This document shows, piece by piece, positions 1,569-64,000 of a DNA stretch of 64,000 nt (its first letter is position 1; each line of letters starts with the position of its first letter). The DNA is taken from the NCBI GenBank assembly GCA_012845835.1, contig JABAKD010000028.1, positions 6,744,296 through 6,808,295 of the forward strand, given 5' to 3'. This stretch comes from Undaria pinnatifida (taxonomy: Eukaryota > Sar > Phaeophyceae > Laminariales > Alariaceae). The notes under the pieces were generated by a model, which was not told the origin of the DNA, searched no databases, and was given only the letters and a program-made list of their open reading frames with translations. Both the position numbers and the translations under genes were made by a program.

Positions 1569-2399
1569 GTGCTCAACGACAGAGCGCAAGAAGACCCCCG
1601 TGCTGGTTGGAAAAATACCAGGTATCGCTCGTACGATAGGTACGATACTTCACCAGCAAAGAAGCGACAGCGGGTGCATCGGACCACCGAGCTTAGCGAC
1701 AGCACCGCCCCTACTACAACTCGTGCAACAAAAGGTGAAAAAGAAGCTTTTCGTCCAGTCAGCCCAGCAGCCCAGCTGTCAAGGTTACGAAGATAAAAGT
1801 TTCAGAGCTCAAAGCTAGCTACTCAAAGCGCGGCACGGCAGGAGCACTACAGCCGTCATATGGCGCGGAGACCAGACGCAAGGCACCACGCACGCGGAAT
1901 GAATCATCTTTACAGCTTTGGTGGTCCCCGCCCTCTCAGAAGAACGCTGGCACGGCGACCGTGCAAGCTATGAAGGAACAGGAACACGCACCGATTGCCG
2001 ATGAGCACAGCGGCAGCAGCCAGTTATGCTGTTGCTAGACTGGAGATGGCAGAATGCCGTTGTTCTTTCTGCAAGGGGGAAGGGAGTGCAATGTCGCGCA
2101 ACACCAGAGGTTTTCAAGCACAGCAGGCGCAACAGATGCTAAATGCAGCACAGACGGAACCACTGCCGAGGCTGAGGCGTACGTGGACTGTTCTCTCAGT
2201 GCCTCACCTTCTCAAGCGTGACCAGCTGGTGCAGATTGGCGGTTGCGGGGCACTGCGCCAAAATGTTTTCCTGCTCCTGCGCGACGAGATTGGGTTTCAG
2301 TGGTATACGAAAAATATTTCTATTGCGGAGACAGGGGATGAATATCAAATGCGTGTAACGGGTTTTCGTTCGTTGCAGTTGCGAGGTAAATACTCGTAG
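1569..2399 (+). pseudogene. Possible decayed or multi-exon SAP-like gene
   Basis: Three overlapping plus-strand frames each carry plausible protein sequence, but none is open throughout. At about 1740-2036 a frame without an ATG contains KIKVSELKASYSKRG, which resembles the helix-turn part of a SAP DNA-binding motif, followed by a basic Ser/Thr-rich stretch. At 1995-2399 another frame gives 134 residues including CRCSFCKGEGSAMSRN and LLKRDQLVQIGGCGALRQN. The frames could be joined by introns I cannot define, or could be relics of a transposon-borne gene with frameshifts. The SAP resemblance rests on about 15 residues and is weak. 1159-1568 and 2400-4180 show no gene; poly-C lies at about 2502-2514. 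Confidence 0.25.
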
Positions 2400-4180
2400 C
2401 TGATTGCCCTCCTAAATATCCCAACCAAGCAGACCCAAGCTCTCTCCCTTTTTTTGCTGTCCAGTCAGATATACCCACACCAAAGCACTCCTCTCTCCTC
2501 GCCCCCCCCCCCCCATCGTTCTTTTCATTTGTTGTGAGTGGTGACAGCGTGGCAACACGCATCATGATAATCAGCAGAGCAGAGCGGCAACGACGCAACA
2601 ACAACGAACAACGTGTACGACTGGAATCAATCGCAGGATCCTGAGACTGGAGAGAAACCGCAAATTTGAAACGGTATGATTCAACGAGCCCATCTATGTT
2701 ATAGAGCTCTCTGGTACGCATACCACATTTTGACCGTTTACTTGTCTCATCAAATAACTACCTCGGCGAGGAGAGCGCATCACACACATACATGTCATAC
2801 ATACCTTGTACACAGAATGGTTGGTTATGGAAAATCGTCCGCTTGACCCTGACTACATCCACGGGGGGAGTCACCGACCTATATCCTTCATGAGGACAAA
2901 ATACAGAACACACGCGAACGACCTTCCGTAAAAATTGTGAAGCTGTGTATTAACGACCAGGTTTATTTCACAAACACCATACAGTACTTGTACAAGTGTC
3001 ACAAAAAAAACACAGATCTAATAATGTACTACGCAGCATGCAAAGTTAAGTTTCAACCATCCAATCGTTCGTACTCACAGCTGACGTCAGACGTTCTTCA
3101 ATTTTGGTATAAAAAAAATACCCAATACATGCTGCTCTCCCCCCTCTCCTTTGAAGCAACACGCAGGCCTTGGGTTTGTTGTTGTTTGGGTGTATTGAGA
3201 CACGCGCGACACATTATTATACATAAATCAGGACAGGAAACAGAAAACGGGAAACAGGAAAAAACAAAAAAACAACAAACAAAATAATAGTCTAATGCAT
3301 GTGCGAGGGTCGTCTCGGCTGCTGCATAAAAAAAACGTGGTTGACAAGTTTATTGCGAATGATACGATTACCCGGACCTACTTGCACCTGCTCTCCTCCT
3401 ACCTGGTAGTTGTAACGGTTACATCTACTAACTGCAGCTGGTATCATGCAGTAGTATCACCAACATCATCAGCCGTCTCGTGAGAAACCTTAAATCCGGC
3501 TCTTCTACTAGACTATATCCTCCTTACTTAAACCAGGTTGGTGTTGTTAGGGCCAAACGCCAGAAATAATAACAAGATTTTTTTTTTTTGCGATCAATTT
3601 CTTATTTTCGTCGCCGAGGATACCAACAAGCTTCCTGGTGGACACGTAGTATCCGGGGGCCAGGCCACCCAGAGGAAGGGAGAGTTGGTCCTTTAAATCC
3701 TAGGCCGCGTGTAAGCTACGTACAACACTTCTTTTTTGTAAGTATTTGTAATTTCTAGGCTAGGCTGTTTTCGTACGAAAAGGCCGACATCTGAGGGGTG
3801 TTTGTTGTTCTGTGGGCACGAAGTTGTCCCGCGTGCGTAGGCAGTGGCTGCAGCAGCAAAAAAGAAGTGAGTGTAATCGACGCGCGGCGCATAGTGGCCC
3901 TCTCTACAGAACACGGAACGCAGCAAAAGTGGACCTTCTAGTAGTAGTGGTCTTCTCAGCAAGGGTGGAACGTCCTCGATTCGACCATCAAGAACTGGCT
4001 GGCTGGTTTACGTATAGTAAATAATCTGGACCTATCTACGAGTGAGTCTAAAGGTTCACTGTCAACCACGAAGCACCTAATAAGCCCCGTACGTAACGCC
4101 GTAACGCTAACTAACGTCGGTCCGTCCCATCCACCGAAACTAAAAAAGTAACGGGAAACATCCCGCGCGGAAGTGCTCGG
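2400..4180. other. Intergenic stretch, no gene recognised
   Basis: Short unconserved-looking open frames on both strands, AT-rich patches and one poly-C tract. CAGCTGACGTCA near 3078 resembles part of a dispersed ~75-bp repeat seen more fully near 18.4, 20.8, 21.05, 26.1 and 27.0 kb. Nothing else is supported. Confidence 0.5.
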
Positions 4181-4512
4181 CGGCAGTTTAGCCGGGATGT
4201 TGAGCGTTGCTTCTCAGTCATACAACAAAAGCGGCAGCACAGATATTAAATATTAGCATAGAAAGATTTTGCCGTACCATGGCCAACGTTCGCCGTCAAC
4301 ATTAATGAGAGGTAGATCTTGCCGTACGATAACACAAAGCGAACGCCCGCTGTCAACAACACGACCGAGATCAATCCTGCTGAAATATGACTTGTCCAGC
4401 GTTGTTGGTTGACATAATAACTGGTAAACAGGATGATGGGACTGTGCATTGCCCCTCACCAACCGTTTTGTCGAAGATAACTCCGTATCGCTGTAAAACA
4501 ATAAAGCTAGCG

Positions 4513-4798
4513 CCGGTAGAGCGGGGTGTTCTGCCCCAAACCTTTTTCGCCCCCCCACATCGGTTCAGCTGACGACTGTCGCCGGAGAACGGGTTTTGAG
4601 GGTTAACCGAACAAGGGGTACCCCAGGTTGTGATATTCAAGCTTCATTCAACATGTGTTTCACAAAAAAAGTGCTTCGCACAATAATATTTTCCGTTTGT
4701 GAGACTCCAGGCTAAAACCTGGAGAATACAAGAGAGCTCGCCCCGGTGGAGCGGCGTTTTCTGCCCCAAACCTTTTGCCCCCCCCACATCGGTTCAGA
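4513..4798 (+). repeat. Pair of ~55-bp direct repeats
   Basis: About 4513-4570 and 4742-4798 share TTCTGCCCCAAACCTTTT, a C-run and ACATCGGTTCAG, spaced by about 229 bp. Just upstream (about 4260-4360) a second short duplication repeats TTGCCGTAC with a following CGTCAAC. There is no gene here. 4800-5940 shows nothing recognisable. Confidence 0.55.
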
Positions 4799-6196
4799 TT
4801 ATTCATAATAATGCATACACGTCGACGGCAGCCCTCCCGCGAACGAACTCAATCGTTCTTCAAAGATACCAGGTATGCGCGTGTGATACATCCCTGGTAC
4901 TACAGGCGCACGTGCCGGCAACAAAATCCAGCCCACTCTAACCACCACAAGCTGACCGTTACATACCCAGTGGCCGCTACTTGCGCAGTGGTGTCAAACA
5001 AAATGTATGTGAAATCGTTTCCCCGCTGAAAAATGGCGCCAAAACCCGGTATGATGTCAAACGACAACGTCCGAGAAATTCCAAACAATCAAATGCGATC
5101 AATAAAAAAAGGTTGGGCGTCTAGTTGGCAAAATTGCAACCACATTATCCCTTTTATTATTTTCCCTCGCCCTGTTTTTGATCAATTAAACAATTCCATT
5201 CAAAAGCAATTACCATTTAGTAGACTGAAGCCGCGGATACGATTTCCCGATATGTCTCAGCAAACGAAAAAACGCCTTCCCAAACCCCCTAATCTCCTGC
5301 CAGCCCCGGTCCCCTGATGTCACGTGTCCCAAACTTACTTCCAAAGCAGCATGAAACAAAAACGGACGCCGAAAGCAAATGCCGGGGGACAATAAAAAGA
5401 AGGAATGGGTACCGTTCCCATTTCCTCCTCTGACGAATAGAAGAGGTGTGATTGCACACCAATTTTACTCTTCACACCTGCACCTGAGATTTTGACAAAT
5501 TATCGTGACATTCATAGTTCTCGTTGGCACAACGAACGCCCATTTCAAGCGATCTGCTATTGTCTTAATCGTCACCGGCCAGGCTCCACCTTGTTTCGCC
5601 ACGACTCTGTGCCAGCTGCCCGCGGTCGGAAACCGTTCCATCGGTTACAACCCTACCGGCTATATATCCCTACAAAATACAGTAACCTCTGACCTACAAG
5701 AAAAACAAAAGACAAAAAAGGCAAACAGGAAACAACACCCACGATGCTTGAAGTGCGTAGAACAGGTGTATAGGGGTACCTACAGCAAAACAAAACCAAC
5801 GTACTTGAAGCCTATAAGCGTACTACTGTCAAACCCCGGGATCAACGACATGTAAGGAACCCCCCTGCAAATCACGACGCAAAATACGCCATCGGGTTCA
5901 ATATCAACTACTTACTACGCACGCACGCACACGCGTACGAGCATATGAGGGCGGGCGGGTATCAAGGCGCCATCCCTACTACCACCACCGCGACTACCAG
6001 CGCCGCAGCGACTACCACCTCTCCCGCTAATACCGCCGCCACCGATGTTACCGCCGCCACCACTACCACCGCCGCCATTGTCAACCACCGGCACTACTAC
6101 AATCGCCCCTACCACCGCCACCACCATCCCGACCACCACCCCCACCAACACTACCACCGTCACCGCTGCCGTCACCCTCGCCTCCGTACATTCCGA

Positions 6197-6355: not shown

Positions 6356-6359
6356 CTAC

Positions 6360-8678: not shown

Positions 8679-10767
8679 TCAGAACGCGGAACCCAATAAG
8701 AGACGAAGGCGACAGCAAGCAATACAACCCTGCACACCACTATTCACAAGCATGTCAGCCTCCCCTCCTCCCCCCACTCCCTCCTCCGTTCCGTGTGGTC
8801 TCATCCCTTCACTGATGGCGACGGATACCTGTGAGTACGTACCACTCGGACAGATAGCTCCTTCCCCCGCCCCCGCCCCGTCACCGCCTCCTGCACCCCC
8901 ACCTCCCCCCGACCCCTCCAATCCCTCACTGCCCCGCCCCGACTCCCACCTACCCATTCCCCCTTCGCCCCACCTCCGCCAAAAGAAAACGAGAGCAGAG
9001 AAGAAAAAACTGACCTCCTGCAGGTCGACGTCCTCGCCCGAAAGCGAGGCCATCACGGCCTCCCGGTCGACCTCCCCCCCTTCCACCTTCCAGGTCATCT
9101 CCGCGCCGTCCTCGAGGTGGAGGAGGCGGTACTTGTCCACGAAGCATACGTCGTGGTCGGCCTCCTCGAAAGCCTCGTAGGCGTCGTAGTGCAGAGTGAA
9201 CACGGGGAGCTCGTCCTCCTCCCCTCCCCGCTCCCCGGTCTTGGAGCCGACGACGGAGCATCCCCACCACTGTTTTCGTGTATTTTTGTTGTCCGGTCCC
9301 CGGGTTTTTGGGGCGGAGGGAGTGTAAATTTGGGGGCGTAAGGCGCAGAATGGGGGAGAAAGGCGACGGTGTTACTATTGACAATGAGACGTGCGAGCGC
9401 GGAGTGCGAGATTTTGATGTCTTGGTTTTTATTTGCAAATGTCGTCAAGTTGTGTGCGTTGGTGTGTACTGCCGGGTCCGTCGAGACTGGAGGAGTTGTG
9501 ACGGGCATGACCTGACGCGCTACTTACTGCTTGTCGCATATAGCTGTAGGTATAGATACCGGTAGCAAATGTTAGGGGTTTCACATGTCCATGATCCCAT
9601 GTTACATCCAGGGGCACCGCCCATTCGAGTTCATCCGTAGTGCCGTAATTTCACTCGGGCGCGCAAAAAACGAAGCCCGAGCCATGTCAACAGGCAGCGG
9701 ATTGGGAGCAACCGTTAGCGAGTTATTGTACAGCAGCAGTACGTTTATGATATTAAAATTCACGGGACTCTTGCCTCAAGCAGGGGCGTCGTACTCTCCT
9801 GCTGCAATGTATTTACGGAATACGCCAGTCGTCGACGTCACGCATGTCTACAATGTCTAACATGTCTCGACCATTTTCGCTGTCTCGAGCCGGTTAATAG
9901 TTTAGACTACTGACTAGACTATTTACTGATTACTGACTGCATTGCCTGAGTCTGTGTAGTAAGGTGGTGTCATACTGCCGCTGTAAGACTGCATCCGCGT
10001 TATGCGAGACAAAACTACTTTGAATTACGAGTAGTGGGGAGTCATTTCGCAATCACAGCTCTACTAATTGGGTTGCAGGGCGCAGGGTGCAAGCGGTGCA
10101 TTTAGGTTACCTGGCAGGTGGTTCATGGGTTGGTAGACTACCATACTCACACGAGTAGGTTCCACAACGCCACCGGAGTCGATGCTACGACAAGACCATC
10201 CCCTTGCTGCTGCGGTAACGTTGTACCTGGTACCCGGCCTCCTGACTACATGACCAGACCTGGTTACACGACCAGCATACTCGTAAGCAGTACCTGGTAC
10301 GCATAGAGTAGAACCTTTTAACACTGACATGTGTCATTTCTGTGAGTGCTTGATGGGATCTTTCTCGGGCACAAACCACACCGCACCCTCCTCACCTTCT
10401 CAGTGCTTTTATCATCCTCCTCCAGAACCCACATCACCTCCAACCTCGACCCCACGGCCAGCCCTACCGATCGGAGAGCCTCCGCCTCCACCCTCTCCGA
10501 GTCCGTTGGCCCCGAACCCCCCCCTGAACCCCCCCCCTCCCCCATTGTAACCTTCTGCTGCTGGCAGGGTTCTTGCCCGTTCAGTGCGGCTTTCACGTCA
10601 AGCTGCTTACTATCCTCATCATCACCCGAGCTGGGTTTGGCGACCTTCGCTGGCGGAGGACCGCCCGCCACCCCGTCCTGGTTGGTGTCGTGTTCCTCCG
10701 GGGCCCTCTTGGCTCCCTGTTGTTCTCCGGTTGCGCTGGGCGCTGGCCCTGCCGCGCCGGATGACAT
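8679..10767 (-). CDS. Tudor/agenet-like nuclear protein
   Basis: Three exons on the minus strand. Exon 1 runs from the ATG at 10767 to 10396 (124 codons, donor GTGAGG). Exon 2 is 9269-9015 (85 codons, acceptor AACAG, donor GTCAGT). Both borders are phase 0. A tentative last exon is 8828-8679. The N-terminus is low complexity with a basic patch (KRAPEEH, PPAKVAKP) that could be a nuclear localisation signal. Across the exon 1/2 junction the frame reads VGSRLEVMWVLEEDDKSTEK then WWGCSVVGSKTG, then VFTLHYDAYEAFEE and VCFVDKYRLLHLED. This beta-rich layout, with paired Trp and an acidic/aromatic strand, is typical of Tudor or agenet folds that read modified histones or other ligands. The family assignment is by pattern only and the specific ligand is unknown. 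It is divergent from the gene at 11638. Confidence 0.65.
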
Positions 10768-12105: not shown

Positions 12106-13100
12106 GACATGCGACGGGCGGGGGTGGGGGAGGGGGTACTCAGGGGGGGGGGGTCAGGACTACAGCTTTGATGGGATTAGGTGGGGCGGTTTGTGGATTA
12201 ATCGCTTATGGGAGTACATAGCGGGGGGCGATACTTCTGTAAGGCGTGCTGAGAAGAGGAGCCTATTTCCATGGGTCGGGGCGTTGACTGTTTACGATTG
12301 TGCGGGGCTAGGAAGCACTTCCTACGGTGGGATCAAAGCACGGCTCTACGAGTAGACCCAGCCCAACCCCTGACCCTAACCCTGAACCCGACCCGAACCC
12401 GAAACGGACGAGAAACTGGAGAAGAGGGCTCAGCTCCATATCAGTACTGTACCAGGTACTCGAGAAGAGCGCGTTGCTGTGGGCCGCCGTATGTATACAG
12501 AACACGCAAGGTGATATCGATATCGACTACGTACAGCAGTACCCCACAGGAAAAGGCAAACACAAGCACAGTACTACTGCAGCTTTTTGCAATAGCAGTG
12601 CCTTGCCTATTCTAGTACTGCTCTTAGAATAGCTGTTCCTCTTTTTGCCTCTTGCCCACCTGTGTGTGCTCTTTTCTTTTCCTCGCCTTTTTTCTTGCCA
12701 AGCAATGACGCCGACCGCCACATGCGGTATAAGACACCAAGTCAGAAACAGGGCGCTAAGAAAGGCAGGATGGCATTTTCGGGAACGTTTGAAATCTGGG
12801 AGGCGTTATGCTGACGTTAGTGTAGAACGAACTACGAACCCTCTCCCAAAATAATAAACCCAGCCTGGATCAACATTACGGTTTGATATTGGCGCCCTGT
12901 ACTGCTGCACCACGCCTTACCTACTACCAGCGCATCGCATATATGCCAAACGCCTTGTCCCCCTCGAGGAGGCGCGCCATCAATCGTTTACCACTTACCT
13001 GCCTTCACGAACCAACCACTACATACCACTATGATATAGTGAATAGGTCAGCTCGAAAAAATGTATACACCGTGATTACTACCCAGTCGCTGCCTCGACG
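12106..13100. other. Intergenic stretch, no gene recognised
   Basis: G-rich run at about 12120-12150 and a degenerate CCCTAA/CCGAAC-type stretch near 12362-12405 (CCCTGACCCTAACCCTGAAC). No coding feature is supported. Confidence 0.45.
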
Positions 13101-17645: not shown

Positions 17646-17750
17646 CCCCCAAAGTGCCCCCTCTACTTCTGTAGGGCCCTTTGGAAAAACTGTCTCCTGT
17701 TTGACCCTGGCAGCACCCCAGGGAGACTCAGCGGCCTATATCCTCAGGCG

Positions 17751-18060: not shown

Positions 18061-19210
18061 CTCAAAAGTTGAACGAATTCGCATCTGCAAAAACGCGCGA
18101 CTGCATGCTACGGTGCCCAAATTGTATTTGTGAGGCTCGTAACCACTTGAGGAGAGGTCCACACCTCGCGCCCGAACACACAAAAAAAAAACTTGGTGAA
18201 AAAAAAAAATGTAAGTGCACAGCCGATACACATTGCCGTGGCCTACTAGGTATACGACCGAGAACATTAACGTTTAGTTAAAACAAAAACAAAAAAATCC
18301 ACGGCGATGTTGGGGTAAGGGGCCCCCCGATGTTTCCGGAACAATTTCAGCCGAAAAGTGGTACCTGGTACGCTTTAAAACCTCCACGCCTCCCAGGGCG
18401 GCCCAAGCATCGCACAGCTTGCAAAAGACGAGTATCGGACTGGCCCACTCAATTCGTCGAACTCACAGCTGACGTAGCTGAAAAAACTTTTTTCCTTTCA
18501 CCAGAATTTAATCAAACACACTAAAATAATGAATGAAAAAAAAAATATATATATATATATCCATGCCATGTGCTTTTGATTGTCCAACCGTTTTGGGACG
18601 CACGCACCCCAACGCCCAAAAACGACAGCAGCGCGATTTACTTGGGCTGGGTTGCGATGTAGCACGGGTGGTGGGTGGGTGGGTGGGTGGGCGGGCGGCT
18701 GGCGGGGGGTTCCTGCCTTCCACCAAAGCAGACAGTTGACGACAGTTGAAAACATCCACCGCAGCGCGTTGTCCTCGGAACAGCTGCAGTAATCTTGCAG
18801 GGTCTGGCTATAGAAACGATGGCAAAACGTTTTTCGGTGGTTGGTGCTTGTGCTGCCGCATGGTCGTTCTTGTGCCGGTTGATCCTTGCTTTACAGAGCG
18901 TGCGGTATCTTACTCATCTTGCGTACTCTTGATTTCGTTTGATCAACATTTTTTTTGCGTTTGTTTGTTCCAGCGCTTGCACCGGACTCATTTTGACCGG
19001 ACACACTTGATCGCGGACGCATTTCGATACGACACATTTAGACCTTTAGGTTAAACACCTACGAAGTGTGGAATGGCAACGCACGCAAAGTGAGGGGGAA
19101 AACCTAAGAACTGTTAAGCTCAAGGCACTTGCTATCAATCGTACGGTGGAGGTGAGCCATTTTTCTCTTCTGAGGGTGGCTGCTTGAGGACCTCTACACC
19201 TCACCACCTG
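18061..19210. other. Intergenic stretch with repeat fragments
   Basis: About 18095-18260 holds a family 2 MITE fragment (GCTACGGTGCCC, AACCACTTGAGG). About 18415-18480 is a reverse copy of the ~75-bp dispersed repeat (TCGAACTCACAGCTGACGT). There is an AT dinucleotide run near 18545-18560 and a GGGT run near 18668-18700. No gene recognised. Confidence 0.5.
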
Positions 19211-20832: not shown

Positions 20833-21115
20833 TTAAGGACGTCAGCCCTGAGTTCGACGAATTTCGGGTCAATACTCATATTTTGCAAGCTACGTTGTTG
20901 GTACTCTTGTAATATACTACCAGGTTGGTGGGTGAGTTTTTCTAAATGGGAGAGGTTCTAGTCTTTTGTTTAAAAAAAATACCAGGTATTTACTCGTATA
21001 TATATCTGTATTTTTTTCTTCTCGACTATAACTAATTTTATAAATAATTCTCAAGGACGTCAGCCGTGAGTTCGACGAATTTCAGGTCAATACTCATCTC
21101 TGCAAGCTGCGTTGT
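20833..21115 (+). repeat. Two copies of a ~75-bp dispersed repeat
   Basis: GGACGTCAGCCCTGAGTTCG, GACGAATTTC, GGTCAATACTCAT and TGCAAGCT recur at about 20833-20895 and 21052-21115, with further copies near 26130 (plus) and 18415 and 27030 (minus). Hairpin CGCTCGCGCGAGTGAC lies near 21208. No gene in 20720-21500. Confidence 0.65.
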
Positions 21116-32960: not shown

Positions 32961-33650
32961 AGGGCCTTCGGCGACTGGAACAGTTTTCGATTGGGTTCTT
33001 CTGGGCCTCCTTCTTATGGCCAGTCGAGTCGACTTTATGGTGTTGTATTATTTTTTCCCGGAGGCGGTTGGTGTAAGGGAATACTGCTGTATGGCAGTCG
33101 AACGTCGGTTGGAAGCGTTGTGCTTCGTGCGTTCTCCGCGAGAAACGCGCACGCGCGACGAGTCCTCGACTGAGCGGGTTGGAGGCGTTGGGACCTGGCC
33201 CAAAGCCGCCAAAGCTACGTTGTTCGTCACGTCGCACTCAGCCGAGAGCCGCGAAAGATATTGCAAGCGTAGCTGTTGCTGGTGGAAAACTCACCGATAC
33301 CGCCTGCTGCTGCCATCTGCCATCGTGTGAGACACGCCGCTGGCGGGCTGGGACTACAAATGTGCCACGCTGACTTGCGGTAAAAAGTTGCAGCAGTGGC
33401 AGCAGCCAAGCCAGTGTGGGCGTTGTTGTACTAATCAATAGGATACTGCTGTGGTACCTGGTATTCCGCCAGTCGAAAACGACCGTCTTCGACTGGACTT
33501 TTTTTTCGACTGGATTCTTCTGGTCCATCTTCTTATCGTCAGTCGAGTCGATTTTATAGTTTTTGTGCTCTTCCTAGAGGCGGTTGGTGTGAGGGGGTAC
33601 TGCTGTATGGCAGTCGGGCGAGGCAATTTTTTACTGTCGGAGCATGCCGT
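32960..33650 (+). mobile_element. CGACTG-type element, two tandem partial copies
   Basis: About 32960-33425 and 33464-33650 match the full element at 40989-41746: GTCGAGTCGA, GAGGCGGTTGGTGT, TACTGCTGTATGGCAGTCG, AGCCGAGAGCCGC and CACGCTGACTTGCGG. The second copy stops soon after GGCAGTCG. Confidence 0.7.
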
Positions 33651-37993: not shown

Positions 37994-38897
37994 CCCGAAA
38001 ATCGGTTGGCAGCTCTGTGCTTCGCGCGTTCTGCGAGAGCAACGCGTGCTCGCGCTCGACGAACCTTCGTCCCAGCGAGTTGGTGGCTTTGGGCTTACAG
38101 CCGAAAGCTACGTTCGTGGAGTTGCATTCAGCCGAGAGCCGCCAAAGCTACAGCAGGCGTAGCCGTTGTTGACAAAATGGGATCGATACCGCACGCTGCC
38201 GCCGTCGTGTGATACACGCTGCTGGCGAGCGGAGCTAGGAATGCGCCACGCTGACTTGCGGCGAGAAGCAACAGCAGTGACAGCCAAGCCAGCGTCAGCG
38301 CGGTCGCCCCCGTGGCGTATCAGGTTATCCTCGAGCCTGGTATAGATCAGTTTTGTGAGTTCGAATCCCCCCGAGTGCATACTCGTATAAATTCGCGGGG
38401 ACTTTTTTCTTGTGCACAAATTGACTTGCGGAAACCGCGAGAGCGTGGGTTTGCAACACTCGATGAAAAATCGACGAGCAGGGGAATTGCTGAACCCTAC
38501 GAGTACGCGCGATAAAAATTGAAGGCAAGAACCGGGGGGAAGAAGGGAAGATCTGTGACCAAGGCTTGTCCAGAAGCTGGAAAGTAGATACTGTACCTGT
38601 GAAAAAAAAAAATATATATATATACTGTGCTGTGTGGTACCTGGTGTGGGTGTGTGAGCGTGTGGGTGTGTGTTTGGTGGTGGGATGAGCGATGCGATGG
38701 GTTAAAAAACACGTGTAAAACTTTTTCGACTGAGTTTTTCGACTGGATCCCCCAGTCGGAAAACTCAGTCGAAAAAAGTTGAGTCGAAAAAGCCATTTTC
38801 GACTGGGTGTAAGAAAGCCCGATTTGGGCTTCAGTTGAAACAGGCCGTTTTCGACTGACAAATCCGACTGTGTAAGAAATGGCCTAATAGACTCTTC
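37994..38897 (+). mobile_element. CGACTG-type element split by a SINE
   Basis: Left-truncated copy (from CGAAAATCGGTTGGCAGCTC) matching 41161 onward of the full element. It is interrupted after GCCAAGCCAGCG (about 38297) by a SINE and resumes at CTGTGTGGTACCTGGT (about 38633). It ends AATCCGACTGTGTAAGAAAT and GGCCTAA. Confidence 0.75.
38303..38628 (+). mobile_element. tRNA-derived SINE, copy 2
   Basis: A box TGGCGTATCAGG (38313-38324) and B box GAGTTCGAATCCC (38357-38369) in the head, the same body as copy 1, and a 3' tail of A11 followed by TA repeats (38600-38628). It lies inside a CGACTG-type element whose sister copy at 41.44-41.48 kb lacks it. Confidence 0.85.
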
Positions 38898-40044: not shown

Positions 40045-42334
40045 ATGGCGACCGAGATGGACCAGTCCTTCGGCAAGGTTCTGGAGTCCCACCGCGATTG
40101 GCCGGCTCCGACCTCGATGGCGACGATTCGGGATCCAACGTTTACAGTGCAGAGGTCTTCGCTCGATGCTCCGTTTTTTGCAGAAATGGCCAGTATCCTG
40201 TCCTGCGAGCCGGTGGGCGAGCAGGTATACAAGGATGAACTACTGCTGTACGGTGGTATTGCTTTGTGCTATGATACATGTGTGTATGCTAAGTGCAGCG
40301 ATGTAGTGGACGAGTACGCTGTGCACCATCTTGGCGCTGGGTAAGGAGAGGCCCATCGTACGGCTGTGCGGCTGGCGCTTCGTATACGACTCGTGTATCA
40401 CGCGAAGGTTTAGCTTGGCACGGAACTGACTTGCTGTCTGTCCAGTGTATACCGTCAGTACTACTGTTCTGGCGCCTGGTGCTCACCAGATATCCTGGCG
40501 CACTCGCAGCAGCAACGTACTGGTAGCAGCAGTTGTGGCATGGCATCGTATATCGTTCCATATCATGGTTGATATATATGATAAAGAAGCTGGGCTTGAT
40601 GGCTTTCTTGCGGTTCTACTCGTGTGTGTTGGTGGTGTTGGTCTCAAGTTGGTAGTCTTTCAGCTGGTAATCTTGGTCTTCGGCTTGGAGCGAGCGGTGC
40701 GTATTGCTCCGCAGTTTTCTTACTCTGTGCAGCGCGCAGCCCGTGATACAGCACGGAGTGGAGGTCCCTCTATAGCGCCGGTTGAGCAGTGCCGGTTGCC
40801 CGATATAGCAACTGTGAAATCGCTTCGCACGAATGGGAACAACGTTTTTTAGTGGAAGTATGCGGAGTAAGTGCGGGTTGCCGCTGTATTGCCGGTATCT
40901 CCAACCATTGCAGGCACTACCGACTCTATCAGAGGGATTACCACTGCTGTAGTATCATATTTGTCAGTGGAGAAGGGTGGCGCGTGTATAAGGCCATTTG
41001 TTACACAGTCAGGTTCCGCCAGTCGAAAACGGCCCTCAACGACTGGGCTTTTTTTCGGCTGGATTCTTCTGGTCCTTCTTCTTATCGTCAATCGAGTCGA
41101 TTTTATAGTTTTTGTACTCTTCCTAGAGGCGGTTGGTGTGAGGGAGTACTGCTGTATGGCAGTCGAAAATCGGTTGGCAGCTCTGGGTTTCGCGCGTTCT
41201 TCGCGAGCAACGCGTGCTTCGCGCGCGACGAACCCTCGTGTTGGCGTTGGGCTCAGCCGAAAGCCGCCAAAGCTACGTTCGTGGCGTTGCACTCAGCCGA
41301 GAGCCGCCAAAGCTACAGCAGGCGTAACCGTTGTTGGCAAAAATGCATCGATAACGCGCGCTGCTGCTGTCGTGTGATACACTCTGCTGGCGAGCAGAGC
41401 TAGGAATACGCCACGCTGACTTGCGGCGAGAAGCAGCAGCAGTGATAGCCAAGCCAGCGTGGGCGCTGTTGTATGATACTGCTGTGTGGTACCTGGTATG
41501 GATGTGTGGGCGTGTAGGTGTGTGTTTTGTGGTGGGATGAGCGATGCGATGGGTTCAAAAAACAGGTGGAAAACTTTTTTGACTGAGTTTTCCGACTGGA
41601 GGATCTAGTCGAAAAGGTGTGAGACCCAGTCGAAAAAAGTTGAGTAGACAAATCCCTTTTTCGACTCTTTAAAATGCCCGATTTGGGATTCAGTCGAAGA
41701 AGGTAGTTTTCGATTGACAAATCCGACTGTGTAAGAAAAGACCTAATGCACAATCGTGCATATGCTTTGTGCCACATCCTCGCATCAGCTCTCGCACGTT
41801 CCACCTTCAACCGCCTCCCCCCCCCCTCGCCCCTCCCCCCTTCCTCCCTCCCCCTCCTTCCCCCCCCCCCCCCCCCACCCTCCCCTCCCTCCTTCCCCAT
41901 CCACGTCCGCAGAACATCAAACAGAAAAACCCGTTCGTTATGGTACAACGCCACCTCTCCACCGCAATGAAAAATTTCCTAGCGAATGATCGAATGAACC
42001 CGGCCGCCCGCCGGGCCGTGGCCACAGCATCCCTCAGCCTGTTCAGGAACTCTTGCAGCATTACCGTTCCTTCCAAGCTTTCCAAAATGGCGGCGAACGT
42101 TGTCCTCCAGGCGTTGGATGCCACCAGCAAGGAGCCCTGCAGGGGTGTCGTGCTGGGCTCCGAGGGTTTCCCGGAGTCCCAATTGGCGGCGTTTTTTTTA
42201 GACGCTACCCGGACGGATCCCCCCCCGCCTCCGGCGCCGGCCATTGTGGTGCCTGCCGGCATTGCTGTTAAGGTAACTACGAAGGGGGAGGAGAGGAAAT
42301 GATGGGGAGGGGGGGGGAGGGGAGGGGCGAGGAA

Positions 42335-42378
<44 letters not shown>

Positions 42379-45300
42379 CCCCTGTCTCCCTCCCCCCTCC
42401 GCCCGGCCCTGTTCCCCGACCCCCGCCCTCCGTCCCCGCCCGAACACTAATCTGTGCAGCTCCCTCGATAAGTTAAGCTTCAAATCCCGTGCGTCGAAGT
42501 GTTGCTGTTGTTGTTGTTGTTGTTGTTGTTGTTGTCGTTGTTGTTGTTGATGCTGTTGTTGTCAATGTTCGTGTAATTTTTGTCGTTCTTGTTGTTAGCG
42601 CTGTTGGTACTGATGTTGTATTGTTGCTTTTGCTGATGTTTATCAAGACCGCATGTCTAAAACATCGAACGTCTGCTGCTGCTGCTCTGACACTGGTGCT
42701 TCTATGATGCTGGTGGCGGTGCTGGTTCTCGCTGGTGGCACCGAAAAACAAAACCACACACAAACAACAGATCATCGTCGCGTTCGGGATCGGTAAGGCG
42801 CGACAGGACGCAGTAGCATTGGAGTGGGGAACCCCGACCGTCGCCGACTGCCTCCGCGGCTCCGTGAGGAGAGTAGCCGACCGACTACGGGAGGGCGGCG
42901 AATGGAAGACGATGGCGGAGCTAGTGGAGCACATGCAGACTCCCCGAGGGGTGGACGAGTGCGAGGGGGTCCTGGGGGTCCCGCTAGCGGAGGTGGGGTC
43001 AAGATGTTGAAAGAATATACTGTATAAAAAAACAAAAACGAGTGCGAGGGGGTCCTGGGGGTCCCGCTAGCGGAGGTGGGGTCAAGATGTGGAAAAAATG
43101 TACTTTGAAAAAAAATCAAAAACGCCAACTATTTGTCCAACCCCTAAAAATGTCCTGGTCTAGTTCCAAGTGTTTTTTCGCCCACACCGGGAGTGCCGTG
43201 CTGTCATAACAGGTTTACGTTCGACCGGTTGACTAGTCGATACACAGCTTGTTATTTACTCTTGGACAGGAGCTCGTGTGAAAAATTCACAGTTCAGACA
43301 CTACTATCTTGGGTTTAGTGTGTTTGGGGGTTTCAGTGTTGTCGGGTTACTCCCGCCCTTGACGCCCGTGTGACTTTCCCTCCCTCTCTCCCTCAGTGGT
43401 GGACGACCAATACCTCTTGCCGTGAGTGCACTGCGCATTCCCCTCCTTAACTCCCTCCCTCCCTCCCTCCCTCCCTCCCTGCCCCCCTCCCTTCCCCCCA
43501 CCCTCCGTCCCTCATAGACGACCAACGCCTCTTACCGTGAATGCACTGTGAATCCCCCCCCCCCCCCCCCCCCCCCTACAAATCCCTCCTTTCTTTAGAT
43601 AATAGCTTCGGCGATGCTTGGAGAACACTGGGAGCCGGCGCGGCGTCTGGTGCTGACGGCGGCGCCTGGCGTGCCGCGGCAGACGCTAGCGCGAGCGATG
43701 ATACCCGCGGCTTCGGACGCCGAGGCTTACGACATAGCGACAAGATTGATCGAGGAGAACAATCTGGTGTCCGAATTTCCCGACTACCGCGTCCTTCAGG
43801 TGTTTCTCCGTACCTGGTAGTTTTTTTTCCCTTCTATTTTCCACCGCTTCTGTCTCTGTCTGCCTGCCTGTCTTTCTGTCTTCCTTTTTTTTATGGCACC
43901 TTCGCTGTGAGATCGAGAATTTGCGTGTGATACTTCGATTGCGCGTGCTACGAGGTGTGTATGTCCTCGTGAAGCATATAGGCTGGCGACCCACCTGCTA
44001 GCACCAGGGTTAACCGGACGATTATGCTGTCTTGTCTCGCAGTCTACTCGTCTGCCCATCGCTCTACTGTATCTGCCTGTCTGTCTATTTGTCTCTTGTC
44101 TGCTCCTAACGCGCTCTCTTGCCTCATGCTTCTGGCCTCTTGATGGTCCTGGTGGAATGTCGGATTTCTTGGTGGTTTTGGTGGCGGCGGGTGCGTTCCT
44201 ACAGCAAAAGTCGTGGCTGAAGCAGAAGAAGCGGAAGCTGGAAGCAGTGGTGAAGAAGCCGGGCTGGAAAATGGCGCAGCAGATGCTCGACCGAGGTTCG
44301 CGAAATGAGCACGAACTGAGGATTTGGCTTGTGAGTTTCAGCTATTCTTATTATCGCACGGGAGCGGGCACGGGCGGACGAGGAAAAAAGGCGGGGCGGG
44401 TGGAGGGAGGAGGGGGCGGCGGGGGGGGGGGGGGGGGCTGTGCGGGGGGATGGATTTGAGCAAACGAGGCCGATGTTTTGCACCGCGCGCATAGCGCGTG
44501 CGTGCTCGAGATGCCGGGAAGCTACCCATACGGTTGTTGTGGCTCTGCGTGTCTGAGGTTATGGTTGCCCGACTGGTAAGTTGGCAAACGGAATCGACTG
44601 CCGCCCCTACCCCCCCGACCCCTCTCCCCCTCCCAAATAGAGTACATACAACGCCTCAGCAACCTGCCCCAACCCAAACCAGCTCAACCCAGCTCACCCC
44701 ACTCCGCCCCCGCCGCCTGCCAAGTGGAGCACATGCAGAGCCTCGGCGTCGCCCCCCCCCCCTCTCCCCCCCTCCCCTCCACGCCCCCCCTCCTCCGCCC
44801 CCCGCCCCCCCCCCCGCCCCAGGTGGAGTACATGCAGAGCCTCGGCAATCTTCCCGCAGCTGCGCAACTGATGGACTACTTCGATCTTCATCGAGATCTT
44901 CCCAAGCTCGACCCCAGGCTGGTCGAGGCTTCCGCCCGCAAACGCGCGGCCGCCCACCTCCGCCTGCCTATTAGCGAGTCCCGGGTGGTGCTCGTAGATA
45001 ACATGGGCACCCTAAAGTACGCACAGCAGGCTCTGCGGGACCCTCCCGGGATAGGGGAGCGGGGGGGGGCGCCGGGGGTGAGCTGTGTGGGGCTCGACGT
45101 GGAGTCATGCCCGGTTTCGGCGATGGCGACTCTGCTGCAGGTGTGGTTTGGAGGTGGAGGCGGGGGGTCGGATGGGGTCGGGTGGGACTCGTCGACGGAA
45201 ATGGGTTGGAGGGGGTTAGGGGTGGGGGGGGGTGTACTCAGTTTTTGCATGGCCGTAGTCGTATGACCATGGACCCTCGCATCTCTACTATGCCGGGACG

Positions 45301-49218: not shown

Positions 49219-50250
49219 TTGATTCATCCTTCTTCGGCCTCCTCTCTCCTCCCCCCCCCCCCCCCGCCTTTCTCCCGCCTACATATCATCGCACCACACC
49301 GCGGCTTTAGCCCCCAACCCCATACCAACCGCAGACATCACAAGACCAGCGGAAGACCTCAAAGGGGGGCGAATTTCGCCGCACACAAAGCTAGTCGATT
49401 TTTTGGGGGAAACTGCTTATTTTTTCCCCGTAGAATCCAAAAAAACTTCTTAATCCGTGTGGAACTGGGAATAAAAAACGCTGGGGCAAATAAAATCGGA
49501 TTTGTTTCTGGGACAGCAGTAGCAAAAAGAAAAAGGGTCTATTTCTATCGGAAAAAGAAGAAAAACACCTTTTTTTTTTTACAGCCACTGCGGGAGCAAA
49601 CGTCGTCGTATCTTACGCGGCTGCAGCCAATTGCCAACCCTGCAGAAAAGCGTCGGCCTTGGGTTTGGTGGAGAAGGCGCGGGATTTTTCCGGCGAATTT
49701 TTTTGGCGTGTGTTTGTAGGCGATTCTTGTGTTTTGTGGCGGGCGTTTCGGCGGAGAAGGTTTAGACGCCGAGATTTTTTTTTTTTTTTCTGCTCGTCTT
49801 TTTTTTCCGTCTTTATTTTTTCTTGGTGCAGTCTGTGTCGTAATCGCACGTTGTTGTTTTCCTATGAATACCTATTGTACCTGGTATTTCGGGGTTTTGT
49901 ATTTTGCAAGTCGATTGCGCTGCGGTGTTTATCGTAGAACGCCGGGATTCTGCTGCCTTTGCTTCCCAACTGGCACGTAGAAGGTCCAGGGAGTGTTGGT
50001 GATCCCGCCAGGAAGGAGATGAGCAAGAGGGGGGAAGAGGAGAAGGAGGAGGAAGGGAGCACCATATTTATTTGCGTTGTTCGGTTCGCAAGGGGGTTCC
50101 AGATGTGCTGCCGGCTTTCTTGTGCTGGGAGTCGAAGGTCAGAAGGGTGTGGCCTGCACGTCGTGGGGGCATAACAAAGTTTATTTGTGGCGTATTTGAT
50201 GCGATTCGGGGGACACCGTCAAGACAATGTTCCGTTTGCCCGTCTGATTT
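49219..50250. other. Intergenic stretch, no gene recognised
   Basis: Poly-C at about 49249-49265, then T- and A-rich sequence. It probably holds the 3' end of the exonuclease gene, but no poly-A signal can be singled out. Confidence 0.4.
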
Positions 50251-51102: not shown

Positions 51103-51387
51103 GACGCGTGCTACGATAGTAGAGGTGCACCACTTTTCTATGAGGTCCCTCACTTTCGGAGCTCAAGACATGTCCTTCTTAAGCCTTGGAAAAACTGATT
51201 TCTCAAGGGAAAAAAAAAAACTGCTAGTAGAAGACCGGAATGAAAAATCCCATGGCCTAGGTATACAACGAGAATCATGAAAAAAGAAAGAGGCATATTT
51301 CCGACGAGTTTGAGGTAAGGAACCCCGTCGTTCAGTCACCATTTCAGACGCAAAGTGCTAGGTGCCTCTTTCCTAGCACGCGCGTCA
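51103..51387 (-). mobile_element. MITE family 2, full reverse copy
   Basis: Starts GACGCGTGCTACGATAGTAG and ends TTCCTAGCACGCGCGTC. The interior is the family sequence in reverse (AGACATGTCCTTCTTAAGCC, CCATGGCCTAGGTA, CCCCGTCGTTCAG). A partial copy lies at about 50255-50350. Confidence 0.75.
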
Positions 51388-51474
51388 GATGCCGAGCGAG
51401 GGCGTGTGGCATTGCTCACAAGAGTTAATAGCCCTTTTGTGACCCAGGCACTGCCTGTCTAGATAGGTGCTGCG

Positions 51475-53453: not shown

Positions 53454-53489
<36 letters not shown>

Positions 53490-53490: not shown

Positions 53491-55790
53491 GCGTCTCCGC
53501 CCCTCCCTCCCTTACCCTAGATGCGTACCAGGTACTAACATACAAATATGCTATTATAAGAGACCGGTTTATTTGGGCGCGTCAAGGTCTAATTTGACAT
53601 TAATATACTAGTTTTAGAGTAGGAGAGCGGTCAGTCACGGGGTCAAACCGCTGCCTCCCGGGATATTCGCTTGGTCGGGGCGCGTCAAGACCTCTTTGGG
53701 CCTCAACATACTAGTTTACGCGTAGGAGGGCCGTCAGTCAAGGTGTCAAACCGCGGTCTCCAGTCATACCAGGTAACATTTTATTACATATAGTACGTCC
53801 TGTAGAAAACAAAATTAAATCTCCTCTTCCCACCCTCACCTAAATATGAAAACAAAAACAGGGAGACATGCAAAATCTCAAAACTCCGCCGGTTGTACCG
53901 GGGGGGGGTATCTACGTACCATCCCCGCCCGTCCACCACGGTCCCTACTAAGGTAACACGCCAGGGGGGGGGGGGGGGGGGGGGTCAGGGGGGGACAGTG
54001 TGCGTATAACCATGGTCATACATGGCCGTAGTCTGCCAGACCATAAACCCTTGCATACCTACAGTCGGGGTGGGGGATGGGGTGGGGGGGGATTCTGCCG
54101 CGAGCATTCGCGGTCTTTGTCACTACCTCTCTGCACACACGCCCCCTATCCTATTGAAAACCCGACGCCCTTTTCCCCCGCGAAACCACGAAAGTCGTGC
54201 ACAACAAAGGGCGAGACCGATGGCGACTAAAGCCTGGGATACGCTAGATTGTCGTACGAGTAGATATCCAAAGGGCCCCACAGATACGAAGCACGGGAGC
54301 GCCGCACAGACAATGCAAATAATAAGAGGAAGGAGCGGAGGCGGTATGCAAAGCAGCAGCAGCTGCAGCAGCGAAACAAACGCGAACGAAGACTTCAAAA
54401 GCAAACTTTAAAAGCAGAAGCAACTTACAACCCCCCCCAAAAAAAAACAAGAAGCAAAAGAAAAATTCAGACGCAGAAGCAAAACCCAGAAGCAAAACCA
54501 AAAACCAGCCGATCTGCGGCTGAGGCTCTTTGCTTCTTTCACAAAAAAAAGCAGAACGGTAAGACCCTAAGCAAAAGGGAGAAGGAGAACAGCCAAAAAA
54601 AATAAAAAGAAGAAATGAACAAAAGAAGAGCACGTGTCGCACCCGATCGATCCCCAGCGGAACTCTACGCTGCTTCCACACGAAGGATAGTAAGTATCGC
54701 AAGAAAATACAACAGCCACAGCCGGCTTAAATCTAGTACTTGGACCGTTTGCCCCCATGGCTCCTAACCCCGTCTCTCGCTCTCTCTCTCCCCCCCAACA
54801 AGTGGAGCAGGGCTCTCCTCTTGTCGGCAACAAAAATAAAAAACAATTTATCCATGTCTTAACTGCACCCGCACCCTCCCACCCACCCCTACCCCTAGCC
54901 CCCTGTCCCCGCCTCCCTGCCTGGTCGGTGAAACCCTGATGTGCTCCATCCCGGCATAGTAGGGATGCGAGGGTCTATGGTAATACGACTAAGGCTGTGC
55001 ATCAAATGAGTACCCCCTACCGCCCCCCCGCGCCCCCGCGCGATGGTCGCACGCACTACGGCCACGCATGATGTGATGATTACACCCGCCCCCTGCTCTC
55101 CTCCTTCACCCCAGCCGTTGGATCTCCAAATGGTGGTGTAGTTGTGGTGGCGGTGGTGGTGGTGTTGGTAGCAGCGGAAACATTAGTTGGGGCCCAACGG
55201 CGGCGGCGGTGACAGAGCAAGCGGCTAGCAGACAGCCGCAGCACTCATGCCCAGCTTTCGGCATTCCGAGGTTGCTATACGGTGCCACAAGGACGGGAAG
55301 GTGGACATAGCTATACACTCATGCCGGCGTTGTTGTGAGCAGTGAAAAAGTGTCAACATATATCCCGGGAACGGGTAGAGGTAGCAGTAGCGGTAGTATC
55401 AGTGGCGATAGCGGTAGCAGTGGCGGTAGATATAGCAGCGGTGGAAGCAGGTCAGCCAATGGAAGAGGCTGGGGCTCAATGGCGGCGGCGGCGGTGGCGT
55501 CGGTGATAGCGCTAGCTTTTAGCCGTTTGCCGCAGCTCTAGCAGTCAGTGGCAGCTCTAGCAGTCAGCGGCAGCTCTAGCAGTCAGCGGAAGACCTAGTG
55601 GTAGCAGTGGTGGTGGCGGCGGCAGTGGTGGAACCAAATCGGTTACGTTGAGAGGAGCCATCACTGCCAAGCCGCGGCAGCAGCGGCGGTGGTAGCACTA
55701 GCAGCCAGCGCTAGCACTAGCGGTATCGCTATCGCTAGCACTAGCGGTAACCGGTAGCAGTGGCGGTAGTATTGGCAGCGGTGATACAAA
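53491..55790. other. Intergenic stretch with simple repeats
   Basis: An ~120-bp imperfect duplication near 53565-53760 (CATTAATATACTAGTTT-G-GTAGGAG and CTCAACATACTAGTTTACGC). A GGTAGCAGT-rich minisatellite at about 55375-55780 includes three 19-bp units CAGCTCTAGCAGTCAG-GG near 55533-55590. The last part probably includes the 3' untranslated region of the coiled-coil gene. No gene recognised. Confidence 0.5.
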
Positions 55791-61700: not shown

Positions 61701-62950
61701 TTAAGCACAGGAAAACTCAGCTGTTCCGAATATTAAAATATTTACAAGTTATGGGCAAAAGAACCCAGGACCAAAAGTTGAAAAACGACTACCTGGTATA
61801 TACATACGTCGTTTAATCTAAAAAATGGAGGCGACCAACTCAGACCCACACCCATACCCATACCCATACCCACCCACGAGAGGGGTTCTACAGTAGTAAC
61901 ACTCCAAGCGTGCTTGCAAGGGAAGGAAGTGATATCGTACGGTCCCCTTCCACACTCGTATTATATTAGACAGCAGTAGCATCACATGGAAAAAAAAAAG
62001 AGGACTACATACTACCAAGTACACGATACTGTACGTAACCGCCGTTGTGCTTCTCGTCATTTGCTTTATTCACACCGCCAATCTCGCCAACCACAAAAAA
62101 CAAGCAACATCCCTGTCCGTGACAGCGAGAGCTCGCGCCGTGCGATGCGTGACAGGCCCTCTGTGTACGTTAGTATCGTACTTTGAGTAAGATGTGCTGA
62201 GAGTCCCAAAAGTGTTCCATAAAATATACCGGTACTTGGTGCGTACCTGCAAGTATTATGCCGGGTTTGTCTGCGGTACGTACGTCCGGGACAATTCGTC
62301 GCCATATACCCAGGCAGTCTGCATCACGAGTACTGCTGCTGTACTGCTGTTGCAGACTTCGAGTAGAGCTGTGGAGCAGGTGTCGACTAACTGAAAAGCG
62401 TTCCGATACATGGACTTCACCTACTGCTGCTTCTGGTGCTGCTGCTGGTGCAGAGCCTCCAGGACCACACTGCTGTCAGCAACTTACACGAGGAAACGCC
62501 AAGAAAAAACATACCAGGTGCCAGTGATACGTGTTATCACCTCTGATGCTACCGCTGCTATACACGCCCACTCACGAGGACTGCAGCAAAAACCTACCCA
62601 CGAGTACTCTCATACTACTGCTCGTACGTACTGGTAATGACAAACCATTATGGCTGTGGTAAGATACCTGCTGCTCGCTGCGGCGACCTTTGCCTCGCAC
62701 TTCCAGAGGAGCGGGACAAGTCGCCCGAAGACGACCCCGACGACCCCCGACGCAGACGGGTCGCGCCAGCGGCAGGGGCCGCCGAGTCCTCCCTCGCCTG
62801 CTGCTGTAGTGCCGCGACGTTGTTGATAGGTCTGGGCATGACCGTGACATTGGGGGTGGAAGCGGAGGGTAGGGTTGGGACGGGTTCAGCATTCTCAGCG
62901 GTGGGCGGTCTGCTGAGCCGAGCGATCTCCTCCTCTAGAGAGGAGTCCAT
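55792..62950 (-). CDS. Ser/Gln-rich coiled-coil protein, unknown function
   Basis: Five minus-strand exons join in phase to 415 codons: 62950-62668 (ATG), 59209-58596, 57263-57178, 56329-56248 and 55974-55792 (stop). Donors GTATCT, GTGCGA, GTGAGG, GTGAGA; acceptors all CAG or AAG. The N-terminus has a short helix (DSSLEEEIARLSR) and a Ser/Arg-rich region. The large second exon is Asp/His- then Gln-rich and ends in a coiled coil (KEEEAWKRSEEALKKKEQ). The coil continues through exons 3-5: ESVLLATVDRELAQLALDHQ, LEVVDRELAFLDRDAQRKLE and GITTRLTELILASEKKRDAK. The VDRELA-x-L motif recurs in consecutive exons. The C-terminus is Pro-rich. No known family is recognised; the layout fits a scaffold protein. 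Further exons inside the 3.4 kb first intron cannot be excluded. Another candidate exon (57966-57871, YDMSDFDDGDDRGERM) does not fit the phase. Confidence 0.75.
58335..58419 (+). mobile_element. TTAA-type mini-MITE nested in a MITE family 2 fragment
   Basis: Identical 4-bp flanks TCAA (58335-58338 and 58416-58419) enclose GGATTTTTTGGGGACAAATT, TACTTGAAGTTAGTATAGGG and GGGGGCTCTTGAGGGG. Surrounding sequence (CCGACGATTTCTGG, CATCGCAGCACGCGCC) is reverse-oriented family 2. It lies in an intron of the coiled-coil gene. Confidence 0.7.
60440..61085 (+). repeat. AGTAC/AATACT array with ~9-bp periodicity
   Basis: About 640 bp densely filled with AGTAC, AGTAT and AATACT words, often spaced 9 bp (AATACTGCG, AATACCGGG, AGTACTCAC, AGTAC). 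The motif occurs in both orientations. It lies in the first intron of the coiled-coil gene. Frames across it are by-products of the repetition. Confidence 0.65.
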
Positions 62951-63396
62951 GATTTCGGTGGGGGTGAAGGGCGGCAGCGGCGCTCGGGGAGTGTCTCTCC
63001 CAGGTATGAAGGTGTGCGCTCGTTTGCGCAGAGAGAGGGACAGTCGCCACCGACGGAGGCTGCTACCGCTGCTGCTGTTGTTGCTGCTGCTGCCGCCGCA
63101 ACGTGGAGCAATCAATCAATGTTCTTGAAAATGAAAATTGAGGTTTTATAAAACACGAGAAGCGTTTTTTAAAGGGGCTATTTTATGTTTAAATCTCACG
63201 TGAGCGTCGCGCGCCGGCCACCTCCCCCCCAACCAACTAAACACAAACCACGCAAACATCTAGCCCACGGGACTGACCACTGTATAACGCAACAAGCCGA
63301 GAAGGAGGGCCTGGAGCTGGGATCGTGCTTGTGGCAAGAGAACGCAGCAGAAGCAGCAGAGTGGCAACATCAACGGCATCAGCAGTTATAGTCAGC
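62951..63396. promoter_or_regulatory. Region between divergent start codons
   Basis: 446 bp lie between the ATG at 62950 (minus) and the ATG at 63397 (plus). Both candidate leaders are CAG/GCAGCAG-rich (63055-63100 and 63345-63395), as before the other genes here. No core promoter element could be assigned. Confidence 0.4.
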
Positions 63397-63486
63397 ATGT
63401 CTGCCTCAAAGTCTAAGCTACGGATGGAGCTCTTCAGCGAAGCCAAAGCCCACTGGGCTGCTCAGCACAGACAGATTTTTTGTCAG
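63397..63486 (+). CDS. First coding exon of an unidentified gene, partial
   Basis: ATG at 63397 begins MSASKSKLRMELFSEAKAHW and continues AAQHRQIFCQ to a donor CAG|GTGGGT at 63486/63487, 30 codons in phase 0. Codon makeup and the CAG-rich leader resemble the other first exons of the window, and the spacing to the divergent gene fits. An overlapping minus-strand frame here (SLDFEADMLTITADAVDV) is also protein-like, so the strand is not certain. Possible downstream exons up to 64000 could not be joined. The gene would continue beyond the window. No family recognised. Confidence 0.4.
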
Positions 63487-64000
63487 GTGGGTTGGTCTGT
63501 GTGGGGGTTGCTGCGCGCTGTGTGTGCGAGCTGTGCTTGGCGTGGGGTATCGTGCCGCGAGGGCAAACATGTAACGAGCGGCAGAGAGAGGAACGGAGAG
63601 AGCTCACCGTTACAAGTAGTTCTGCTGAATTGAGAATCGCCACTTCCTTCGTGCAGACTGCTGCGGCGGTTCTGCTGTTGTCGTTTGATGTTTTCGTTGT
63701 GACTGCTGTTTGCCAGCTGCTGGCTGTTGTACGCGTTATTACGTGGCTGTAGTTGGCATGATGCACGTGTTGGTTGAGCAGCAGTCTAAATATGCATCAT
63801 GCATACCTGAGACTCGTTGATGATGGCCATTACATACACCGCACCATGCATCAGGTTTGTTCCGCAGACCACCAGCAACAACAGACGACAACAACCAACG
63901 GTGCGGGTGTACCAGGTACACACCTTTGTATCTGCTATGGGCTATTACGGGCGGGGGCATGACGAGGCCGTCTGTCATGCCCTATAGAGTCGCATTTCGG

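Follow-up and report, generated by a model that had tools for sequence, protein, structure and literature searches.

Why should one nine-base palindrome recur throughout a stretch of brown algal DNA, mostly in unrelated surroundings? The question is raised by a stretch of 64,000 nt from Undaria pinnatifida (contig JABAKD010000028.1, positions 6,744,296 to 6,808,295), hereafter called the window, in which the word TACCWGGTA had been noticed at 16 positions. The original prediction left three readings side by side, namely a binding site for an abundant protein, a word linked to methylation, and scars of an unknown mobile element. Our analysis argues for the third of these. We consider it highly probable that TACCWGGTA was left behind as a footprint when a cut-and-paste DNA transposon excised, one that targets TA, duplicates it upon insertion, and is most likely non-autonomous and Tc1/mariner-like.

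The 16 coordinates all proved exact, and one further copy at 3400 had been overlooked, so that the window holds 17 exact copies, with A or T as the centre in 17 of 17. Since 100 dinucleotide shuffles of the window gave a mean of 0.35 copies (maximum 2) and an order-3 Markov model an expectation of 0.31, the strong over-representation described before was borne out. Among the 256 nine-base odd palindromes with any centre, TACCNGGTA ranked first in the window with 17 occurrences, followed by runners-up with 6. The same holds for the genome (511,146,479 bases searched in 68 contigs), where TACCWGGTA occurred 85,263 times compared to 3,475 times for the reversed control, i.e., the word written backwards and not complemented; this is about 24-fold and corresponds to one copy per 6 kb. 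The G/C-centred form reached 9,212 matches versus 2,599 for its own control. Thus, the genome-wide count lies far above the control rather than near chance, and the over-representation stands. A 124-kb sample not selected for the word, consisting of the window and six 10-kb stretches, contained 30 copies versus a mean of 0.53 in 40 shuffles. Based on a TA density of 0.0497 per base, the genome has about 25 million TAs, of which about 0.3% carry TACCWGGTA.

Such a number of copies could have been spread by a repeat, the copies then representing decayed termini of a single interspersed repeat or miniature inverted-repeat transposable element. A few of them do lie within repeats (33455 and 41490), and some of the half-sites described below share a continuation. 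Nevertheless, only 2 of the 30 copies in the 124-kb sample had a flank of 12 bases in common with another copy (9 or more bases alike), most half-sites had no common continuation, and filled and empty sites in the repeat family analyzed below differ by 7 bp, all of which makes this explanation very improbable. The flanks are thus mostly unrelated, and with 28 of 30 copies lacking a shared 12-base flank they do not appear to form a single repeat family. Reading 38 non-overlapping copies on both strands (76 readings) revealed a clear bias only at the adjacent base, with a purine before and a pyrimidine after the word. The preceding base was G in 33, A in 27, C in 13, and T in 3 readings, compared to frequencies of 0.30 for A, 0.28 for G, 0.21 for T, and 0.20 for C before any TA.

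The evidence that carries the scar reading comes from a repeat family in which empty and filled sites can be compared directly. The repeat at 20860..21110 (plus strand) serves as a natural empty-site test; with 40 of 1,725 candidates scored, it had at least 85 matching stretches, 22 others covering all or nearly all of its 251 bases. In this first family, the majority of copies read ATATAC-TA-TGTGGG, whereas some read ATATAC-TACCWGGTA-TGTGGG, which is a clean 7-bp insertion (CCWGGTA) with the TA duplicated. An alignment of eight copies, comprising that of the window and seven fetched from elsewhere in the genome (fetched loci are given L numbers), contained five without an insertion after ATATAC (four with TA, and L020 with TC) and three filled ones with TACCAGGTA, TACCGGTA, and TACCAGGTT, one each. 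With their context, the filled copies read ATATACTACCAGGTATGTGGG in L019, ATATACTACCGGTATGTGGG in L022, and ATATACTACCAGGTTGGTGGG in the window. The latter, TACCAGGTT at 20918..20926 (plus strand), appears, from the alignment with the seven genomic copies and from the 521 site copies described next, to be a decayed scar at a TA that is mostly empty across the family.

Genome-wide, the site with 0–12 inserted bases resulted in 521 matches, and the first 100 listed comprised 82 empty and 18 filled ones, the latter including four 4-bp tandem duplications and one single extra T. A search for TA-bounded fillings of 2–20 bp at the same site revealed 46 in the genome. Recurrent among them were CCTGG (4), CCAGG (2), GTC (4), GAC (4), CTCG (2), and CGA (2), and single cases included CTG, CTTG, CTGG, GGC, GTT, CTCCG, CCTGC, CGAGG, CTTCGAAG, GACTAGTC, and others. 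Nine of the 46 (TC 5, TG 4) were plain 4-bp tandem duplications and were set aside; TATCTA and TATGTA, which made up 10 of 29 fillings at the second repeat described below as well, were therefore rejected as scars. At a non-TA control position four bases further on, probed with the same site letters and 0–20 inserted bases, 461 copies matched, and the first 100 listed included no filled one.

It is here that the two other explanations of the original prediction part from the scar reading. A selected binding site of an abundant protein, e.g., a transcription factor, an insulator, or a replication or meiotic factor, would fit the palindromic form, the preference for R and Y at the adjacent base, the density of one per 6 kb, and the mostly unrelated flanks. 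It does not fit a word that appears as a 7-bp TA-duplicating insertion where most copies are empty, nor the further TA-bounded words that fill this TA; furthermore, the changes in one-mismatch forms of the word fell on each of the nine positions and spared no core, though the numbers are small. We regard a binding site as improbable. A role of CCWGG in methylation or in a restriction-like system would account for its presence within the word, but the insertion comes with a duplicated TA, and the same TA is also filled by TA-bounded words without CCWGG, so that this idea retains hardly any probability. Since neither a binding site nor a methylation word created by point mutation predicts a clean insertion that duplicates TA, both are disfavoured, and of the three earlier readings it is the scars of a mobile element that find support. 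It is possible that some scars were later co-opted for use. One-mismatch forms amounted to 90 readings, whereas six control words averaged about 37, and the exact word had 76 readings; if this excess represents decay, the scars have changed by a rough 7% per base, and the source family is probably old in this genome.

A second test was provided by a repeat resembling a short interspersed nuclear element (SINE), found in the window at 17748–17947 and 38300–38499 and also in L009, L011, and L014; one 20-base segment of it had 4,609 matches. Its head we take to be of tRNA type, and ARAGORN detected no tRNA in the window. The copy at 38300 is nested in a CGACTG-type repeat. Probing at the TA of GGTGGCGTATCAGG revealed 29 fillings, of which two were TACCAGGTA and one each TACTGGTA, TACGAGTA, and TACGAAGTA; the remaining ones were an ambiguous TATGGTA and 23 tandem duplications or AT repeats. 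The corresponding non-TA control with the same letters and 0–20 bases matched 4,609 copies; the first 100 listed, all on contig C1, were free of insertions. Altogether, the filling is flanked by a duplicated target TA in the first family and in two cases in the second repeat, as in a footprint of the Tc1/mariner type, and insertions are specific to TA, with 18 filled among the first 100 listed at the TA of the first family compared to 0 among the first 100 listed at each of the two non-TA controls. A comparison of the fetched repeats that was not focused on any chosen site led to 205 insertion entries of 3–22 bp. For the 118 entries of 4–10 bp, a list with some loci in duplicate and some AT repeats among the TA cases, the bounding dinucleotide was TA in 16, AA in 11, TG in 9, and others in fewer cases. 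The TA-bounded entries included TACCTGGTA, TACCGGTA, TACGAGTA, TAGACTA, and a repeat-borne TACACTGTA.

The tandem duplications among these fillings (9 of 46 at the first repeat and most of the 29 at the SINE) raise the question whether error-prone repair of breaks could have produced short TA-bounded palindromic insertions without any transposon. Repair can produce palindromic insertions. A random process, however, would not repeat the same 5-nt filling by the tens of thousands, and one TA-duplicating word dominates the genome, with the W centre in equal parts; accordingly, we give break repair only a slight chance.

The centre base was analyzed separately, in fixed orientation and with the left context TAATATACTACCWGG, which matched 71 genomic sites. 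Fifty-nine of these were fetched as half-sites, leaving out 12, i.e., six scars already in the list of 46 fillings, the copy in the window itself, and five sites located near fetched ones. A TA followed in 44 of the 59, with A as the centre in 22 and T in 22. For the first family alone, TA followed in 23 of 25 (centre A 14, T 9), and the list of 46 fillings had CCTGG in four and CCAGG in two cases. Thus, the centre is resolved to either of two complementary bases, again as in a Tc1/mariner-type footprint. As one inherited event would yield one centre base, the presence of both A and T indicates that the word arose more than once.

These features would be expected from the following course of events. 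The transposon would insert at a TA, duplicating it, and upon excision would leave 3' overhangs CCAGG (or CCTGG) beside the duplicated TA on both flanks, the overhang of 5 nt being what we infer from the filling. The overhangs could pair C-G, C-G, A-A (or T-T), G-C, and G-C with one mismatch and be ligated, and mismatch repair would then fix A or T at random, resulting in CCAGG or CCTGG. Pairing of overhangs and repair would explain the W centre, the TA-bounded odd palindrome, and the unrelated flanks at once. Alternatively, the filling may be a junction of shorter remnants that overlap by one base. Since a scar leaves two TAs, the same spot could be hit again, which would lead to tandem scars. 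Such a tandem scar at one TA is TACCTGGTACCAGGTA in L061, and L064, L075, and L080 carry a second, different TA-bounded filling at the same TA. L019 harbors, at 2394–2517, a tandem array of TACTAGGTATGG units that resembles stacked TA-bounded scars turned into a minisatellite.

Other families may leave other TA-bounded words in the same way, and we therefore counted sibling words in the 124-kb sample against the mean of 40 shuffles. TAGWCTA occurred 24 times versus 7.9 expected (TAGSCTA 8 versus 8.2) with shared flanks in 9 of 24, and TACWGTA 26 times versus 9.5 (TACSGTA 11 versus 10.2) with shared flanks in 0 of 26. TACTCGTA or its complement was found 20 times versus 2.1, with flanks shared in 3 of 20. 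All three may be scars of other families. TACWGTA equals the footprint C(A/T)GTA beside the target TA that is given for Sleeping Beauty and Frog Prince in PMC3878927. Another candidate, TACASTGTA, was dropped despite its enrichment (11 versus 0.7; TACAWTGTA 2 versus 1.0). Since 10 of 11 copies share flanks, it mostly represents ordinary repeat spread and lends no support to the scars. It was seen at 26944 in the window and in L009, L010, L011, L013, and L014, with 10 of the 11 copies in one kind of repeat (CTACAGTGTAGCT). A related set, TACAGCAGTA/TACTGCTGTA, had been reported to recur as well and indeed did so, with 10 copies in the window versus a shuffle mean of 0.07; three of the 10, at 33082, 33598, and 41147, share flanks.

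Several findings weigh against an origin by excision. No clean empty homologue was found for any of the 17 exact copies in the window, and the direct cases of empty and filled sites are copies elsewhere together with the decayed scar at 20918. Since several copies of a repeat may owe one scar to inheritance, the 46 fillings do not equal 46 events, and the count of independent ones is uncertain. The word is rare at the SINE, with 2 cases where about 4,600 match, compared to 6 in 521 in the first family; exact-match probing favours young repeat copies, and the rarity suggests that CCWGG activity predates most of the SINE copies probed. The filling of 5 nt exceeds the published overhangs of 2–3 nt, which points to an overhang of greater length or to remnants of the two ends joined together. 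The word TACAGCAGTA fits the scar model only imperfectly, as the forms expected from mixed repair of two A-A mismatches were scarce (2 versus 13 in 124 kb). No TA followed in 15 of the 59 half-sites, among which L031, L037, L050, and L057 share a right side similar to TTGATGTAAAGGAAAGGAA. Finally, an intact element with CCWGG ends did not turn up in searches covering terminal inverted repeats (TIRs), half-sites, and the DDE_3 element with two relatives.

In these searches, TA-flanked TIRs starting with CCWGG were absent from the fetched sequence except for an inverted SINE pair. Looser criteria, with up to two mismatches at 153 TACCWGG sites, resulted only in the inverted SINE pair, the internal repeat CCAGGGTCAACAG, and one AT-rich pair. 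CCAGGGTCAACAG was rejected as an element end, because it is an internal variant of a repeat, and further copies of this repeat continue with the same left side. L057, one of the four half-sites with a common right side, differs from L031, L037, and L050 on its left, so that the shared right side may represent an element end. The DDE_3 profile had eight matches in the genome, and the six examined carry TIRs other than CCWGG. Among them, L023–L026 represent a TA-flanked element that carries TGGTCCGTGCACAAC at both ends (termini at 651 and 2408 in L023), with 98.7–99.3% identity along about 1.75 kb. Longer copies have open frames of 771 aa (L027) and 767 aa (L028); in both, the fetched stretch covers the right end only, at which L027 differs by one base. 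The near-identical TA-flanked copies indicate recent activity of TA-target elements, but these have different ends. Neither L029, a more distant relative, nor the nearer L030 revealed a CCWGG TIR. The Transposase_1 profile matched nowhere in the genome, but neither did its control. A sequence search against the PDB with the frame of L027 found nothing, as did a Pfam scan of the eight open reading frames of at least 200 aa and an Rfam scan in the window.

Regarding the window itself, the copies are listed as putative excision scars without strand assignment. Exact matches of TACCAGGTA are located at 1616..1624, 4867..4875, 12450..12458, 53526..53534, 53767..53775, and 63910..63918, and those of TACCTGGTA at 3400..3408 (the overlooked copy), 10224..10232, 10291..10299, 18362..18370, 43811..43819, 49878..49886, and 61790..61798. 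A further putative scar, TACCAGGTA at 20980..20988, lies in a variable AT-rich stretch of the repeat at 20860..21110, and other copies of this repeat hold other TA-bounded words near the equivalent stretch. At 32106..32114, TACCTGGTA is followed by CCAGG, apparently as a tandem scar. The copies of TACCTGGTA at 33455..33463 and 41490..41498 lie inside the same CGACTG-type repeat. As the word is altered in homologues of the latter, to TACCTGGTG at 38638 and to TACTTGGTA in L014, this scar seems to have been inherited with the repeat. A possible second type of scar is TACGAGTA (equal to TACTCGTA) at 38498..38505, again without strand assignment, which is a 6-bp TA-bounded insertion compared to homologous repeat copies. 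Apart from these, an inverted repeat of about 1.45 kb at 50571–52021, bounded by TA and with the ends CAACTGGAAACCC, may be a foldback element. Runs of about 30–40 C or G were seen at about 53455–53487 and at 42337–42377, among many long C/G homopolymers, and three tandem 98-bp units rich in GATGAT, 91–93% alike, at 29312–29602.

If the scar reading is true, the copies of TACCWGGTA are a record that can be counted, although the transposon behind them was not found. We further propose, rating it at slightly less than an even chance, that a TA-target lineage with a self-complementary 5-nt overhang CCAGG left about 80,000 surviving scars at about 0.3% of TAs and is now gone or rare, that TAs hit repeatedly stack into arrays that may seed minisatellites, and that each extinct family leaves a barcode word of its own, so that excisions could be counted and dated from one assembly. 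Insertions of transposons are catalogued but their departures are not, which makes excision the half of transposition that stays hidden. If each family had a scar word that could be read genome-wide, past excisions could be counted and dated by decay even for vanished elements, and the target preference and repair symmetry of lost elements could be measured from their scars. For motif finders, the case is a caution against taking every strongly enriched palindrome whose flanks are unrelated for a binding site. HIP1-type palindromes of cyanobacteria are likewise short, over-represented, of high density, and with unrelated flanks; unlike these, TACCWGGTA arises by TA-bounded insertion.

Events of this kind are known, but the open-licence literature searched does not describe the 5-nt form, the scale, or a scar word leading the palindromes of a window. 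The genome of the brown alga Ectocarpus is likewise rich in Mariner-Tc1 elements, for which PMC12477816 gives 17 families with 11,912 copies, mostly non-autonomous, and the terms "footprint" and "excision" are absent from its main text. For rice, the excision counts in PMC4423477 include 8 perfect cases in 94. In PMC7827188, the transposases of Sleeping Beauty and mariner are described as cutting one strand three nucleotides within the element, whereby the donor flanks keep its terminal bases as 3' overhangs (3 nt for Sleeping Beauty), which end joining converts into the footprint; overhangs of Tc1/mariner elements are generally 2 or 3 nt according to PMC3878927. As in the footprints of Sleeping Beauty and Frog Prince described in PMC3878927, the TA is duplicated here and a short odd-palindrome filling with a W centre lies between the TAs, whereas the filling is 5 nt (CCWGG) instead of 3 (CWG), is present in tens of thousands of copies, and has a source element that was not found. 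Footprints of Stowaway in Triticeae and of Osmar5 in yeast, as described in PMC1925063, are similar in being TA-bounded remnants of short TIRs, with several footprint types at one site and reinsertion at a used TA. In contrast to these 1–4 bp, mostly asymmetric footprints at single-gene sites, the Undaria genome displays one dominant symmetric word throughout.

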